Shown here: positions 18,176 through 44,360 of the stretch, piece after piece
Numbering within the stretch: position 1 is the first letter of the stretch
Layout of the letters: each line of letters opens with the position of its first letter
Source: Rhizophagus irregularis
Taxonomy: Eukaryota > Glomeromycota > Glomeromycetes > Glomerales > Glomeraceae
Reading direction: 5' to 3'
DNA: 64,000 bases
Assembly (NCBI RefSeq): GCF_026210795.1
Contig: NC_089434.1
Location: forward strand, 434,001-498,000
Translations under genes and position numbers: made by a program
The notes under the pieces: generated by a model
The model's input: the letters and a program-made list of their open reading frames with translations, nothing else
The model's database searches: none
What the model was told of the DNA's origin: nothing

Positions 18176-19310
18176 TATGAAAACTAATATTCAAGTAGTT
18201 TCAACTTGCCTGAACAACTTTCAATTAATAAATAAAGTTGATTTCATTTGCCCAAAGTGGAAATATTACGCTCTAAATTAAAAAAACAGAAAAGAGAGTT
18301 AATATCATCAAGAAAAATGCAATTTTCTCTAAGCACTACACCTACATTCATGAAAATTAATATTCAAATGGTTTCAACCTGCCTGAACAACTTTCAATTA
18401 ATAAATAAAGTTGATTTCTTTTGCCCAAAGTGGAAATATTACGCTCTAAGTTAAAAAATAGAAAAGAGAGTTAATATCATCAAGAAAAATGCAATTTTCT
18501 CTAAGCACTACATCTACATTCATGAAAATTAACATTGAAATGGTTTCAATCTACCTGAACAACTTTCAATTAATAAATAAAGTTGATTTCATTTGCCCAA
18601 AGTGGAAATATTACGCTATAAATTAAAAAACAGAAAAGAGAGTTAATATCATCAAGAAAAATGCAATTTTCTCTGAGCACTACACCTACATTCATGAAAA
18701 TTAATATTCAAGTGGTTTCAACCTGCCTGAACAACTTTCAATTAATAAATAAAGTTGATTTCATTTGTCTAAAGTGGAAATATTACGCTCTAAATTAAAA
18801 AACAGAAAAGAGAGTTAATATCATCAAGAAAAATGCAATTTTCTCTAAGCACCACACCTACATTCATGAAAATTAATATTCAAGTTATTCAAGTTGTTTT
18901 AACCTGCCTGAACAACTTTCAATTAATAAATAAAGTTGATTTCATTTGTCTAGAGTGGAAATATTACGCTCTAAATTAAAACACAAAAAAGAGAGTTAAT
19001 ATCATCAAGAAAAATGCAATTTTCTCTAAGCACTACACCTACATTCATGAAAATTAATGTTCAAATGGTTTCAACCTGCCTGAACAACTTTCAATTAATA
19101 AATAAAGTTGATTTCATTTGCCCAAAGTGGAAATATTACGCTCTAAATTAAAACACAAGAAAGAGAGTTAATATCATCAAGAAAAATGCAATTTTCTCTG
19201 AGCACTATACCTATATTCATGAAAATTAATATTCAAGTGGTTTCAACATGCCTGAACAACTTTTAATTAATAAATGAAGTTGATTTCATTTGGCCAAAGT
19301 GGAGATTATA
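18176..19310. repeat. Tandem satellite, about 172-bp unit, 7 copies
   Basis: The motif CCTGAACAACTTT occurs at about 18209, 18382, 18554, 18726, 18907, 19079 and 19251, a period of 172 bp with one 181-bp unit caused by a small internal duplication (TTCAAGTTATTCAAGTTG). Units differ by a few percent, the outermost ones more. Other unit landmarks are AAAGTGGAAATATTACGCTC and CACTACACCTACATTCATG. No conserved open frame runs through the array. Confidence 0.9.
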
Positions 19311-21229: not shown

Positions 21230-22310
21230 AATCCAGAGCGCCGAAAAGAAAATCTAGGCCTACAAAAAAAAGAGAAACGTTCAGTTAGAACGTTTCTTAA
21301 AGAATAAAATTAAAAAAAATAATTAAAAAAATGTAAGTTTCGAATATCGAAACTTACCATATCGGCATATCCAAGTCCCAAAGCCGAAAGAATCGATACC
21401 TACAAAAAGAAAAGAGAAAATTAAAAAAAAATAAAAAAAATAAAAATAAAAAACGTGTTTTATTCAAAACTTACTGATTCTTTGGGTTTTCCGTTCTTCG
21501 GAAGCCCACCCGAACCTATAAAAAAAAATACAAGAACGGTTAGTTAACCGTTCTTAATAATAAAAAAATAAAAAAAGTTAAGATTCGTACCATACCTTAC
21601 GAATCTTTGGGTTTTCCGTTCTTGGGAAGTCCACCCGAACCTATAAAAGAAAAAAGAAAGAACGGTTAGTAAACCGTTCATAATAATAAACAAAGAAAGA
21701 AAAAAAATAAAGATTCTTACGAATCTTTGGGTTTTTCCGTTCTTGGGAAGCCCACCCGAACCTATAAAAGAAAAGAAAGGAACGGTTAGTAAACCGTTCC
21801 AAAATATTAAAAAAAAAACAAAAACCAAAATTCGTACTCGTACTTACGAATCTTGGTTCTCCCGTTTGTCCGAAGTCCACCCGAACCTATAAAAGAAAGG
21901 AACGGTTATTAGTAACCGTTCATAATATTAAAAAAAAAATAAAAAAAACAAAACCAAGATTCGTATACTTACGAATCTTGGTTCTTTTCCGTTCTTCGGA
22001 ACCGAAAGTTCGCCCGAAACCTAAAAAATAGAAGTGAACGGTTATTGTAATCGGTTCATAATATTTTTTTTTAAAAAAAACAAAAAAAACAAAACCAAGA
22101 TTCGTATATACTTACGAATCTTGGTTCTTTTCCGTTCTTCGGAACCAGGAAGCCGCCCGAAACCTAAAAAAAGAAAAGAACGGTTATTAGTAACCGTTCA
22201 TTAATAATATTAAAAAAAAAGAAAAAAAATTAAACCAAGATTCGTACTTATCTTACGAATCTTGGTTTTCCGTTCTTCGGAACTTGGAAGCCCACCCGCT
22301 GACCTAAAAG
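21230..22310. repeat. Tandem modules with hairpins and antisense splice-like ends
   Basis: Seven modules recur at a 120-143 bp period; their 39-48 nt cores lie at 21475-21515, 21601-21640, 21721-21761, 21848-21886, 21973-22020, 22116-22163 and 22257-22303. Between cores sit stems such as GGAACGGTTAGTAAACCGTTCC. On the minus strand every core is preceded by T(T/A)TAG and followed by GTAAG, exactly like an exon, and most start GTTCGGGTGG. Core lengths are not consistently multiples of three. Whether these are real antisense exons is unknown. Confidence 0.65.
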
Positions 22311-22329
22311 AAGAAAGGAAAAAAAAATG

Positions 22330-23345
22330 AAAAAAAATTACGAAACGTTAATAAGCGTTTCGTTAAAAAATGTAATAAAAAAAATCGGAACGTTAGCCAA
22401 CGTTCCGATTAAAGAAAAAAATCAAAAAAAAAAGTTTCGAAACGTTAAAAAATGTTTCGTTAAAAATGAAATACAAAAAAAATCAGAACGTTAGCCAACG
22501 TTCCGATTAAGAAAAATAAAAAAAAAATGTATTTTCGAAACGTTAAAAAACGTTTCGTTAAAAAAAATGAAAAATAAAAAAATCGGAACGTTAGACACGT
22601 TCCGATTAAAGAAGTTAAAAAAAAAGAATAAATGAAAGCGCTTTTTCAACGTTTAGGCAAAAATTAAAAATAAAATAAAATGTCGGAACGCCAACGTTCC
22701 GATTAAAAAAATTAAAAAAATTGTTTCGAACGTTAAAAAGCGTTCCGATTAAAAAAAAAGAAAAAAATATTTTCGAAACGTTAAAAAGCGTTTCGATTAA
22801 AATGAAAAATCGGAACGTTAACCAAGCGTTCCGATTAAAAAAAAAATAAAACAAATATTTCGAAAGCGTTAAAAAGCGTTTCGAAAATAATTTTAATGAA
22901 AAATCGAACGTTAGCCAACGTTCCGATTAAAAAAATGAAAAAACAAATATTTCGGAAGCGTTAGACAACGCTTCCGATTAAAAAAAAAATAAAACAAATA
23001 TTTGAAAGCGTTAAAAAGCGTTTCAAAATATTTTTAATAAGAAAAATCGGAACGCTAGCGTTCGTTATTAAAGAATTTTTTAAAAACAATATTTCGGAAC
23101 GTTTTCAACGTTCCGATTAAAAATGAAGTAAAAATTAATCGAACGCGGCCAACGTTCGATTAAAAAAGAATTTAAAAAAATAATATTTCGGAACGTTTTT
23201 CAACGTTCCGATTAAAAATGAAATAAAAAATAATCGGAACGCTTAGCCAACGCTTCCGATTAAAAGAATTTTTAAAAAATATTTCAAACGTTAAAAAACG
23301 TTTCGTTAAAAAATGAATAAATAGTTTCGCAACGTTTCGTTGTGA
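22330..23345. repeat. Array of about 22 short hairpins, about 48-bp period
   Basis: Two palindromic stems alternate, separated by A-rich linkers: CGGAACGTT..AACGTTCCG and CGAAACGTT..AACGTTTCG. Stem positions include 22341, 22385, 22436, 22485, 22535, 22583, 22683, 22725, 22774, 22810, 22860, 22903, 22951, 23003, 23047, 23094, 23140, 23189, 23236, 23283 and 23326. Some arms differ by matching changes on both sides (for example AGCG with CGCTT), which suggests that pairing is kept. Confidence 0.85.
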
Positions 23346-36283: not shown

Positions 36284-39200
36284 TTAAATTTTATATGCAC
36301 TATATTGCATACCTAATGACTTCAAATCTTTAATTATATAATCATTCAAATCTTCACTTAGCTGTTCATTTACTTCTACACTAGCTTGTAAATCTTCGCT
36401 TTCAAGAATTTCATTCAAGTTTTCACTAGTATTTTCAACTGCTTTAATATCTAATAATCAAATAAATAAATTATTTTCACATAAATAATTTGCAAGATTA
36501 AATTTCATATGCACTATATTGCATACCTAATAACTTCAAATCATTAATTATATAATTATCCAAATTTTCACTTTCAAGAATTTCATTCAATTTTTTACTA
36601 GTGAAATCAAGTAAGCAACTTGTATGATATGCTTTAGGATGAGATTTAGTAGCTAGATCGCTATGCACAATTGGTGCATTTATAAATTCCATAATGTTGC
36701 TTTTTAATTCTTCATTAATTTTATCATCAGGACGGATAATCCAATTCTTAATAATACCTTTCACTTCTGAGGTAGATGGCCTTTTCAATGGATCTTCATT
36801 CCAACATTTTTTCATTAAATCTACATAGCATTGTGGAGTATTTTCAATAATTTTAGGGCGTTCACCTTTACAAATACTATAACTAAGTCGAAAATCATGT
36901 GCTTTATTATTAAATGGTGGTACCCCAGATGTAAATTCCCACATAATCATAGAAAAACTATATATATCACTAGCTGGAGTATAAGATTTGCCTCTTAAAA
37001 CTTCAGGAGCCATAAATGGCATAACACCATAAATATCATACTTTTTCAAAAACGATTTTACAGGTTGACATAATCCTAAATCACAAATATAAATTTTATC
37101 CTTATTCTTATCATTATGATTTAAAATATTACCATCATGAAAATCACAATGAATAAGATTATTTCCATGTATCCTACTAAGTCCAGAAATAATTTCGTAC
37201 AACATATATAATTTTTGATTCCATTTATTTTCGACTATTCTTGTTAGATTTTCTCTTAAATTACCTTTATTTGCATAGTACATTACTACCATATATTTTG
37301 AAGTATTTGTATCTTCTGTGAATCCATAAACATTTATAATATCATTTGAAGTTAAAACACTTATATGATATTCCCACTATAAATATAATAATTATTATTA
37401 AATATAAATAAATTTTAATTTAAATTAAAAATAGAAAATAATATACTATCATACTTCTTTTAAAAATTCATTTAAATTTTCATCTAAATTCTTAAGACAT
37501 TTAAGAATTACTTCTTCATCTCCATTATTCTTTAACCAAGTAGCTTTGTATATAGTACCAAATCCTCCTTTATTAAGATATTCAACATTTTTAAATTTGT
37601 TATAAGGAATCCATATTAATTCTTTTTCAAGAATAAAATCATCTATAATTGCATTTCCACTTTTCCCAAATCTATAAATTTAAAGTATTAAAATTATATT
37701 ATGGATTGTATTATAATTTACACTAAAATAAATTATTGCTTACTCTAAAATTTAAATAGGAATTTAATTTAATATAAGTCTTAAGTTTTTGGATAAATAC
37801 ATATACTAATAATCTATAATTTACAACTTACCAACTAAAGTAATAGATATTTTTTAAATGAAAGAATTAAATTAACAAATAGATATTATATAAAATATAT
37901 AATAATAGAGATACTTACAAGCTAGATCATAAATATTTTTAAATAAAGAAATTAGATAGTTTAAATTATATGTAAATATTATAACAATAAGTAACAATAG
38001 AATTAAATAAATAACTTACCATCTATAAAATAATTTTTTATATAAAGAAATTAGATAGTTTAAATTATATGTAAATATTATAACAACAAGTAATAATAGA
38101 ATTAAATAACTTACAATCTTTAAAATAATTTTTTATATAAAGAAATTAAATAGTTTAAATTATATGTAAATATTATAACAATAAGTAATAATAGAATTAA
38201 ATAAATAACTTACTCACTATATTATTTAATAATTTTTTAAATAAAGAAAAATTAGATAGTTTAAATTATATGTAAATATTATAATAATAAGTAATAATAG
38301 AATTAAATAAATAAATTATGACTTACCAACTACAAAATAAAGAAATTAGATAGCATAAATTATATGTAAATATTATAACAATAAGTAATAATAGAATTAA
38401 ATAAATAACTTACACCCTATATTATTTAATAATTTTTTAAATAAAGAAATTATATAGTTTAAATTATATGTAAATATTGCAACAATAAGTAATGATAGAA
38501 TTAAATAAATAACTTACGATCTATTAAATAAATAAAGAAATTAGATAGTTTAAATTATATGTAAATATTATAACAATAAGTAATAATAATAGAATTAAAT
38601 AAATAACTTACGATCTATTAAATAAATAAAGAAATTAGATAGTTTAAATTATATGTAAATATTATAATATAAGTAATAATAATAGAATTAAATAAATAAC
38701 TTACCAACTATTAAATAAAAATTAGATAGTTTAAATTATATGTAAATATTATAACAACAGGTAATAATAGAATTAAATAAATAACTTACTCCCTATATTA
38801 TTTAATAATTTTTTAAATAAAGAAATTTGTTAGTTTAAATTATATAACAATAAGTAATAATAGAATAAGTAATAATAGAATTAAATAAATAACTTACAAT
38901 CTATTAAATAAATAAAAAAATTAGATAATTTAAATTATATGTAAATATTATAACAATAAGTAATAATAGAATTAAATAAATACTAACTTACCATCTATTA
39001 AATAAATAAAGAAATTAGATAATTTAAATTATATGTAAATATTATAATAATAAGTAATAATAGAATTAAATAAATAACTTACTCCCTACATTATTTAATA
39101 ATTTTTTAAATAAAGAAATTAGATAGTTTAAATTATATGTAAATATTATAACAATAAGTAATAATAGAATTAAATAAATAACTTACGATCTATTAAATAA

Positions 39201-40789
39201 ATAAAGAAATTAGATAGTTTAAATTATATGTAAATATTATAACAATAAGTAATAATAGAATTAAATAAATAACTTACTCACTATATTATTTAATAATTTT
39301 TTAAATAAAGAAAAAATTAGATAGTTTAAATTATATGTAAATATTATAATAATAAGTAATAATAGAATTAAATAAATAAATTATGACTTACCAACTACAA
39401 AATAAAGAAATTAGATAGCATAAATTATATGTAAATATTATAACAATAAGTAATAATAGAATTAAATAAATAACTTACACCCTATATTATTTAATAATTT
39501 TTTAAATAAAGAAATTAGATAGTTTAAATTATATGTAAATATCATAAAAATAAGTAATAATAGAATTAAATAAATAACTTACGATCTATTAAATAAATAA
39601 AGAAATTAGATAGTTTAAATTATATGTAAATATTATAACAATAAGTAATAATAATAGAATTAAATAAATAACTTACGATCTATTAAATAAATAAAGAAAT
39701 TAGATAGTTTAAATTATATGTAAATATTATAATATAAGTAATAATAGAATTAAATAAATAACTTACCAACTATTAAATAAATAAAGAAATTAGATAGTTT
39801 AAATTATATGTAAATATTATAACAATAAGTAATAATAGAATTAAATAAATAACTTACTCCCTATATTATTTGATAATTTTTTAAATAAAGAAATTAGATA
39901 GTTTAAATTATATAAATAATATAAATATAGATATCATATAACTTACACCCTGTAGTATTATTAATTATTAATTAGTTAGATATAAAGATAATATAAAAGT
40001 ATTTACTGTAAATTATATATATTACTTACAATCTAGTTGTTTAAATTAAGAATATAATTAGTTGAATTATGTAAAATATTAAACAAATAAATATAATATT
40101 TATATTGTAACTTACCATCTGTAATACAATTAATTATTAAATAGTTATTTAAACAAAGAATTTAGTTATTTGAATGTTGTATAAAAATAAATAAAGTAAA
40201 GGACTAAAGATTTAAATAACTAATAACTTACTAACTACAGATTATTAATTATTGAATAAATTATTTAGTTATATGGAATACAATAAAAATAATAATGAGT
40301 AATTCATTATATTAACTTACGAGCTAAATATTTAATCATATAATTTTTATATAAAATAGTTAGTCTAAATTATATTTGTAGTATTTGAATTGTTATAAAT
40401 AAAAACTTAATATTTCAGCTACCTTTAGATTCCTTGGTGTCACTTCCTTCAAATTCCTCAATACTACTACTTTCAAATTCTTCAGTGCCACTTCCCTCAA
40501 ATTCTCCAATGTCACTTTCTTCAAACTCTTCTATATTACTGGAAACTAGTTTTGTTATATTGCAAATTTGATTTTAATTATATTTGATTATTTACAATGA
40601 AATTTTTTTAATAAATAAAAAAACTTAATATTTCAACTTTGTTTTGTACATAATATTTACCTTCAGGTTCTTTTGTATCACCCAAAACTAGTTTATTATA
40701 TTGCAAGTTTGATTTAAAAATTTTGAATAATTCTAATTTATATTATTATTCATGTTATAAACTTTACCTTTACCAATACATTGGTCCAT
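36284..40789 (-). CDS. MK: protein kinase with acidic N-terminal exons and micro-exon array
   Basis: Start exon 40789-40768 (MDQCIGK), then 40687-40661 (GDTKEPE), 40545-40423 (about four acidic repeats of IEEFEGS type), the splice-site array 40322-37739, kinase exon 37671-37455 (KGGFGTIYKATW, VILK), kinase exon 37377-36527 and last exon 36450-36284. The catalytic loop is HCDFHDGN and the DFG position reads DLG; an APE motif and WNEDPLKRP are present. An alternative end uses the retained intron and stops at 36498. An extra base at 37320/37321 shifts the frame between GF and TEDTNTSKYM, so the copy carries a frameshift or the sequence has an error. All junctions up to the array are phase 1, while the first kinase exon needs phase 2. 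Confidence 0.65.
37739..40322 (-). repeat. Array of 28 splice-site pairs (AG-NNN-GTAAG), 82-115 bp period
   Basis: On the minus strand 27 units read AG, exactly 3 nt, GTAAG; the last unit (37746-37739) has 1 nt. The three-base cores from 5' to 3' are CTC, TTA, ATG, ATT, GGT, GGA, TTG, ATC, ATC, GGT, TTG, TGA, ATC, GGA, ATG, ATT, GGA, TTG, ATC, ATC, GGT, TTG, TGA, ATT, ATG, CTT, TTG and then a single A. The central units share a body (AATTTAAACTATCTAATTTC). A seven-unit block is duplicated about 1062 bp apart. The five outermost units at the 5' side and the first few at the 3' side have diverged bodies yet keep the spacing. Read as one-codon exons from the phase-1 end of the preceding exon, they give 28 residues without a stop and restore the kinase frame. 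Confidence 0.75.
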
Positions 40790-43439: not shown

Positions 43440-44360
43440 TTATTGAAAATGATTTATTTTTTTCAAATAAGATTTCGCCATCATAGGCGTTATCTGTGAA
43501 AATGCTGCTATAATAGCAAATCTAGGGTCGGGATAAGTTTCCATAAAATCCTTATTTCTTTTAATCCAGCTTTTTACTGTAGAAAATGCTAATTTTATCA
43601 GATTGAAATCAGGAGAGTACGGAGGAAGAAATAATATTCTACAACCAAGACTTTTTATTACATTGATCAATTCTTCATCATGGTGTATTTTAGCGTTATC
43701 CATCACCAATACACTGTTCTTTCCAGGGTAAGGTTTCATAAAAGGTAACTATAAAATTAAAATAATTAGCAATTAGCAATACTGAAATTAAATCATAAAA
43801 AAAACTATAAATATAACGTGATCACAAACGTGATCGTAAAGTTGCGCGAACGCGAAAAATAAAAAAATACAATTTGAGATAAAACGATAAAACAAATGAA
43901 CAAAATCTCTCTTTAGAACAGCTACATCTCATAATATCACATGCAGCGAATCCATCTAATGTAAGCGTAGGTAAAATAGTATACCTAACGCATCTCAAAA
44001 AAACTACTTTTTGACATGCTCTTTGATTTTCAAATGAATATCCATAAGTTCGTAATAAAGATCTTTCATTTAGCAGTTTCGTCCAAAAAAATCAATTGCT
44101 CTGCTTGATATTCTGTACTAATAGTAAAAATATAATCAGTTTTTAGCAATTCACTCCTTTTTTTTGCAGCTTTTCCAACTAGATTTTAAAAATAATAATA
44201 TATACTTAACCTTCTTTCTTGTTATTCCATAATATTTTAAAGATCTCTATAAAGTAGGTATAGAAACCTATTTTTCCAGTTTTATTAATCATCTCTCCAA
44301 TAATTTCATCCAAATAATAATTAGGACATTCTTTAATAATTTCTTGTAAAATCTAAAAAA
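43440..44360 (-). pseudogene. Tc1/mariner transposase, DDE_3 type, inactivated
   Basis: On the minus strand the order is a helix-turn-helix part (ILQEIIKECPNYYLDEIIGE, about 44355), FTISTEYQAEQLIFLDETAK with the first catalytic Asp (about 44080), a frameshifted stretch reading YGYSFENQRACQKVVFLR, and an open segment 43739-43440. That segment has VLVMDNAKIHH (second Asp) and FLPPYSPDFNLIKLAFSTVK. The usual NPIE carrying the third acidic residue reads NLIK, so the catalytic triad is broken. At least one frameshift and one stop confirm a dead copy. Confidence 0.8.

Follow-up and report, generated by a model that had tools for sequence, protein, structure and literature searches.

How can a protein be read from a stretch of DNA in which the exons would be a single codon long? 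This question is raised by a protein kinase gene on the minus strand of a 64,000-nucleotide (nt) stretch of the genome of the root-inhabiting fungus Rhizophagus irregularis (assembly GCF_026210795.1, contig NC_089434.1, positions 434,001 to 498,000; hereafter the window, in whose own numbering positions are given), in which the exon for an acidic repeat and the exons for the kinase domain are separated by an array of short, regularly spaced units. With a probability of about 0.87, we consider this array to be a series of consecutive spliceosomal one-codon exons that are translated in phase 1 and make a variable linker ahead of the kinase domain. At the DNA level this reading is supported by the anatomy of the units, their recurrence in the genome, the length of their three-base cores, the terminal units, the reading frame and the avoidance of stop codons between neighbouring cores. 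The proposed gene comprises the following parts, all on the minus strand:

40768..40789, minus strand: exon 1, MDQCIGK, with a phase-1 end (AAA G/GTAAAG); from the sequence and in agreement with the deposited protein model P0001
40661..40687, minus strand: exon 2, VLGDTKEPE, with a phase-1 end; from the sequence and the deposited model P0001
40423..40545, minus strand: exon 3 (leader), acidic repeat ending in EEFEGSDTKESK, with a phase-1 end and donor GTAGC; like the acidic exon in paralogues
37832..40323, minus strand: 27 predicted one-codon exons, each flanked by introns of 80-113 nt
37744..37744, minus strand: predicted one-base exon (A), converting phase 1 to phase 2; counterpart in 26 of 26 parsed arrays
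37672..37743, minus strand: last intron of the array, 72 nt
37455..37671, minus strand: kinase exon, starting with FGKSGNAIIDDFI, its first base finishing a codon for E
36498..37376, minus strand: main kinase exon, starting at 37376, with the frame open to 36498; Pfam PK_Tyr_Ser-Thr, 1.3e-33

Anatomy of the array

Each unit of the array consists of a short intron (GTAAGT, a branch-site-like CTAAC or CTAAT, TAG) and one three-base exon. On the minus strand, 27 AG-NNN-GTAAG sites succeed one another between the outer coordinates 40325 and 37827 and are followed by AG-A-GTAAG with its single A at 37744. Neighbouring sites are spaced 83-116 base pairs (bp) apart (82-115 bp in the initial annotation, which had recognized the same succession of units), and the introns of the array measure 72-113 nt overall. 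What had been described as 28 one-codon micro-exons is a real array, but one of 27 one-codon exons plus one exon of a single base; its interior units are tandem copies, as had been noted. All 28 occurrences of GTAAG on the minus strand between 37700 and 40400 fall in array units, and when core lengths from 0 to 9 were screened, only 3 (27 sites) and 1 (one site) were present. In the whole window AG-N3-GTAAG occurs 31 times, 27 of them in the array run, as compared to 3.1 expected (standard deviation 1.8), and none of 100 shuffles reached 31.

Cores 1-14 of the window gene are CTC TTA ATG ATT GGT GGA TTG ATC ATC GGT TTG TGA ATC GGA, and cores 15-27 are ATG ATT GGA TTG ATC ATC GGT TTG TGA ATT ATG CTT TTG. 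Read on from the leader exon, which ends in phase 1 (AAA G/), they contain no stop and yield WIDHRFVN twice, just as had been claimed. The kinase exon requires phase 2, and the leader and kinase phases bear out the proposal that the single A at 37744 makes this conversion. It had also been argued that skipping the array breaks the kinase frame, which holds for a direct join of 40423 to 37671 but fails if the one-base exon is kept, as the kinase is then in frame. The predicted protein comprises 449 amino acids, with ALNDWWIDHRFVNRNDWIDHRFVNYAFE placed between KESK and FGKSGN. Its final residues may be otherwise, since P0001 deviates there, probably through a further intron at the 3' end of the main kinase exon. 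P0001 exceeds the curated cut-off of PF07714 (145.3 bits against 23.1), and the window exon scores 116.8 bits.

Related arrays in the genome

The array is one of many. A 34-base piece of its intron is present in identical form at 739 places in the 146.7-Mb genome, a large part of them clustered, and the terminal signature TTG-intron-A produced 101 matches genome-wide, as opposed to none for the reversed pattern. Part of the signature loci were fetched and 26 arrays were parsed, any exon length between 1 and 15 nt being allowed, starting at the leader donor in 14 arrays and at a first core chosen by hand in 12. The parser takes only AG and GT or GC as splice sites, and its longer intron limit was required for 9 arrays. 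The first batch comprised 16 places and the window; two of these places (C1:7914001 and C4:3471001) had no run, and C4:3310001 lies outside the 26, as do two later loci, the interrupted L034 and L040, whose fetched sequence lacked the kinase exon. L034 (C4:5866301-5870300) belongs to a more distant kinase with 46% identity, and its array is apparently broken up by inserted DNA. Among the parsed loci, the lowest identities of kinase exon 1 to that of the window, only 56-64%, were found for L041, L015 and L033.

The parsed arrays span 16 to 88 exons. Internal exons are exactly 3 nt long in 933 of 965 cases, and the last exon is a single base in all 26 arrays (A in 25, C in one). The 32 internal exons of other lengths include 19 that we judged to be parser artefacts forced by inserted DNA (5, 7, 8, 9, 11, 13 and 15 nt, TCACCA, ACCA and TTCA), 8 real units of 6 or 12 nt and 5 real frame-breakers (GT, GA, GA, GATT and GGAA). 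GTAAG is present in 860 of the 933 three-base units and the CTAAC/CTAAT branch-site motif in 713 of 933 introns, as compared to 26 in the reversed control, while the median intron per array, measured on array introns alone, is 87-101 nt. Canonical splice sites were also recovered independently of the parser, by detection of the intron body: 623 of 659 candidates deviate by at most two mismatches from AG-N3-GTAAGT, and some of the other 36 are not true units. Position 2 of the core, counted by hand from the triplet table, is rarely A (29/933) or C (11/933); the window is 74% AT.

Reading frame and stop codons at core junctions

Inspection by eye of the leader exon, which was located in 14 arrays, showed a phase-1 end in each of them. 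In 17 of the 26 arrays the length of every internal exon is divisible by three, which provides an in-frame path into the kinase; with two further arrays, whose odd exons cancel, 19 reach the kinase in frame, and FE-[FY]G is found at the join in each of them. Within the 17 clean arrays (508 cores), phase 1 contains 2 stops, as compared to 9.6 when core order is shuffled (P=0.0012), phase 0 contains 4 (shuffled 4.0) and phase 2 contains 86 (shuffled 71.6). Tryptophan occurs among the first 8 phase-1 residues in 25 of 26 arrays. In 8 arrays the second core, following CTC, is TTA, TTG, TCA or TCG, which always gives Leu in phase 1, but Leu or Ser in phase 0.

The most informative signal comes from the junctions. 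In phase 1 a junction stop arises when T is the last base of one core and AA, AG or GA are the first two bases of the next, the distance between the two in the genome being about 95 bp. Adjacent cores form 3 such stops versus 26.2 expected in 883 pairs (Fisher test, 8.6e-11), a p-value that is approximate, like those that follow, because units descend by duplication. The deficit persists when distinct pairs are counted once per array (3 versus 20.2; 5.8e-8) or once overall (3 versus 11.0; 1e-3), and also after removal of same-core junctions with introns at least 90% alike (3 versus 18.0, with 559 junctions left; p=7.1e-7). It depends on order: pairing the cores in reverse gave 28 versus 25.3 at lag -1, 18 versus 24.6 at lag -2 (p=0.06) and 21 versus 24.3 at lag -3, and larger forward distances gave 23 versus 22.4 (lag 3), 22 versus 21.9 (lag 4) and 19 versus 22.7 (lag 5). 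Four arrays beyond the 26, whose units were taken by the plain pattern, have 0 junction stops versus 4.1 expected in 120 pairs (p=0.006); this set consists of C4:3310001, L034 and L040, the core lists of which were partly known beforehand, and L044, which alone was fresh. With a fixed pattern, the fetched loci contain one T/AG junction versus 45 with A, C or G before AG; where the following core starts with AT, GG or TT, T precedes it at 165 of 484 junctions. Genome-wide, the T/AG pattern has two matches (one in the reversed control), one of which had already been counted. As far as can be judged from genomic DNA, we see no explanation for this order-specific pattern other than adjacent cores being joined and translated.

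Conservation, apparent diversification and possible exchange of units

The terminal cores are kept among paralogues (ATT 26/26, GGT 23/26, CTT 22/26, TTG 24/26), and the introns between these units have mean identities of 83-85%, with 2-3 gaps per pair. The presence of AG and GT or GC in terminal units is not independent, since the parser demands them; what is independent of the parser is that a terminal unit recurs in a matching position and with an unchanged core length. At an ungapped flank difference of 33-41%, terminal cores vary in 0-29% of pairs. Internal cores show the reverse relation, differing in 45.5% of 143 nearest unit pairs in which all 80 flanking bases are identical, namely in 24.5% at position 1, 4.9% at position 2 and 31.5% at position 3. 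As a control, 23 leave-out intron triplets differ in 5.8% on average and in 23.8% at most. When bootstrapped over arrays, cores differ in 34.5% (24-46%) of same-array pairs at 0.9% flank divergence, and in 66% (45-76%) of different-array pairs at 1.3%. Read in phase 1, the core bases that vary stand at positions 2 and 1 of the codon and the one that seldom varies at position 3, as would be typical of diversifying selection. In these data, selection on cores combined with homogenisation of introns would look the same as mutation focused on the cores.

Units with identical 80-base flanks are shared by 41 pairs of arrays despite differing kinase exons, which suggests that units are exchanged between arrays. 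Kinase exon 1 is open over 70 codons in 26 of 26 loci and exon 2 over 280 codons in all 14 examined. The median ratio of nonsynonymous to synonymous substitution rates (dN/dS) is 0.68 for exon 1 and 0.55 for exon 2, where it exceeds 1 in 3% of 91 pairs, and by these measures the kinase itself looks to be under maintenance.

Proposed mechanism and alternative explanations

From these data we infer an order of splicing, a near-full inclusion of cores and a role of the encoded segment. The spliceosome would remove the short introns, most simply one by one from the 5' end, since each removal would leave the next GTAAG beside the newly joined three bases. The codons would then be translated in phase 1, so that the predicted peptide would connect the acidic N-terminus to the kinase domain, and the final one-base exon would bring back the kinase frame. 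Inclusion of the cores would be mostly complete, because the avoidance of stops is mainly confined to lag 1, and because each unit adds exactly three bases, tandem duplication would extend the linker without a frame break. The linker would be rich in D, R, F, Y, N, W and H; that it serves as a recognition or docking segment is a guess.

The deposited proteins pose a difficulty for this reading. Among the best 120 of 1275 matches, the best ones are kinase-like proteins of R. irregularis, and P0001, which covers 89% of the query at 99% identity, evidently represents the window gene among the deposited models. It skips the array, passing from KESK to DDFILEKE through an acceptor within the kinase exon and thereby losing FGKSGNAII, and P0006 likewise fuses the acidic N-terminus to DDFILEKE. 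Such models would be expected if the array were one long intron retaining no cores, its repeats being a passive minisatellite or an aid to recursive splicing, and tandem copying of the interior units is in keeping with this. We nevertheless regard a long intron as very improbable: cores so far apart would avoid joint stops only if joined and translated, the internal acceptor used by P0001 is TAG in 19 of 26 arrays but TGG in 7, and skipping loses the conserved FGKSGN segment. A purely passive minisatellite was rejected on account of the avoidance of junction stops together with the conservation of terminal units. A second group of models, P0007, P0009, P0063, P0070, P0114 and P0019 (the latter from R. 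diaphanus), carries strings of I, L, G, M and V ahead of SK and the kinase exon, as if the cores were read in phase 0 with a five-base last exon AGTAA. N-terminal 6-mers of P0007, P0019 and P0114 (3 of the 120 proteins) are in common with phase-0 readings of the parsed arrays, while 6-mers of the predicted phase-1 peptides occur in none of the 120 and a phase-1 5-mer in 10, always at residue 178 or beyond and outside the N-terminus. The ranking of core differences (position 3 above 1 above 2) would also resemble ordinary purifying selection in phase 0. A phase-0 product is scarcely credible to us even so, as the 14 located leaders end in phase 1, TGA cores occur (two of them in the window gene), junction stops are avoided in phase 1, and an AGTAA exon would require a GC donor in the window gene. 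The strings may rather be what a gene finder yields when it chains one-codon exons in phase 0.

Other points against the micro-exon reading concern its completeness. Strictly full inclusion does not explain the partial depletion of stops at lag 2 (13 versus 24.2, p=0.0026; 12 versus 18.9 with one count per array, p=0.031), which occasional skipping of single exons would produce, and every subset of three-base exons is frame-neutral by anatomy. Real micro-exons might thus be included combinatorially, one gene giving many linker lengths and sequences. We consider this unlikely, if worth keeping in mind, because lags 3-5 lack depletion, the lag-2 signal is reduced to 11 versus 12.8 (p=0.32) if each distinct pair enters the overall count a single time, and reverse lag -2 is somewhat low too. 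In addition, 9 of the 26 arrays contain, as parsed, exons whose length is not divisible by three, at least 3 of these arrays (L029, C4:4731001 and C3:4844001) have genuine frame-breaking cores, a stop lies inside 2 of the 17 clean arrays, and dN/dS of kinase exon 1 exceeds 1 in 27% of 325 pairs. Frame-breaking cores, stops and inserted DNA in several arrays would fit arrays that once were coding and now mostly decay as pseudogenes, to which we assign very little probability, given that the kinase frames are open, median dN/dS is below 1 and the sites of the window gene are intact. Finally, no spliced retrocopy was found in a search for contiguous FEFGKS DNA, for which one of five candidates was read. 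Allowing up to 3 mismatches, this search returned 69 matches (reversed control 1), 64 of which are the ordinary AG/ATTTGG junction; the others are C17:245730, C11:84923 and three identical matches on C12, C16 and C18. C17:245730 (L043) was rejected by eye as coincidental, having neither an array peptide nor a kinase nearby.

Many deposited models of the family (best 120 of 1275) start in or just past the place expected for the array, and improvised-looking N-termini such as MSKFGKS and ...LNLEFGKS occur, some also in R. clarus. N-termini across the kinase family look widely misannotated.

Other features of the window

Three further features were recorded outside the kinase gene:

18177-19303: 6.5 tandem copies of a repeat unit of about 172 bp (92% matches)
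21469-23321: A-rich arrays of short units, with inverted-repeat-like motifs around AACGTT
43440-43748, minus strand: DDE_3 transposase fragment (Pfam, 1.7e-17)

Comparison with known systems and implications

Micro-exon genes of Schistosoma contain many symmetric micro-exons of about 6-36 nt, which generate protein variation in secreted proteins; the exons described here have 3 nt and lie in tandem units with near-identical introns. At the ratchet points of recursive splicing, a long intron is taken out in steps, which the direct adjacency of AG and GT makes possible, and no bases are left behind. The array is unlike such a zero-base AG/GT exon, as it keeps three bases and has no site of core length 0. 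SP7-like effectors were discarded as a source of the architecture: in the material available on them, one conserved intron precedes the repeats and no micro-exon array appears. In plants, 1-nt exons have been validated, and small micro-exons such as those of APC11 and VPS55 are missed by annotation and mapping (PMC8831610). As in the Rhizophagus array, exons down to 1 nt lie between introns there, but in the portion of that source available they occur singly or as two adjacent ones (5 and 12 nt), (PMC8831610), as opposed to predicted runs of at least 15 one-codon exons plus a one-base exon in a large family of paralogues here. Aphid megacycle genes contain more than 100 micro-exons, with 118 exons for 2092 amino acids in one example (PMC9168663). 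According to the part of that paper available, bicycle and megacycle genes likewise form a divergent multigene family with very many small exons, the internal ones nearly all of one phase, but their exons have tens of bases and the products are putative effectors, in contrast to one codon per exon and a kinase in Rhizophagus (PMC9168663). No report of runs of one-codon exons was found in a small literature search, which does not establish their absence from print. If transcribed as predicted, these are, to our knowledge, the longest such runs.

A broader proposal, which we put forward tentatively and think more doubtful than probable, is a codon-by-codon diversity system of about 100 kinase genes. 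Introns would be kept alike by exchange and codons diversified, giving hypervariable, length-variable linkers of the composition described above, perhaps recognition segments, together with exon-skipping variants.

The stop-avoidance test shows that genomic DNA by itself permits inferences on the splicing of tiny exons, and the array, if transcribed as predicted, shows how tandem duplication could lengthen a protein while keeping its frame. If the reading is true, the accurate joining of tens of one-codon exons would be a severe test of exon definition and splicing order, and a large kinase subfamily of an important plant symbiont would probably be misannotated.

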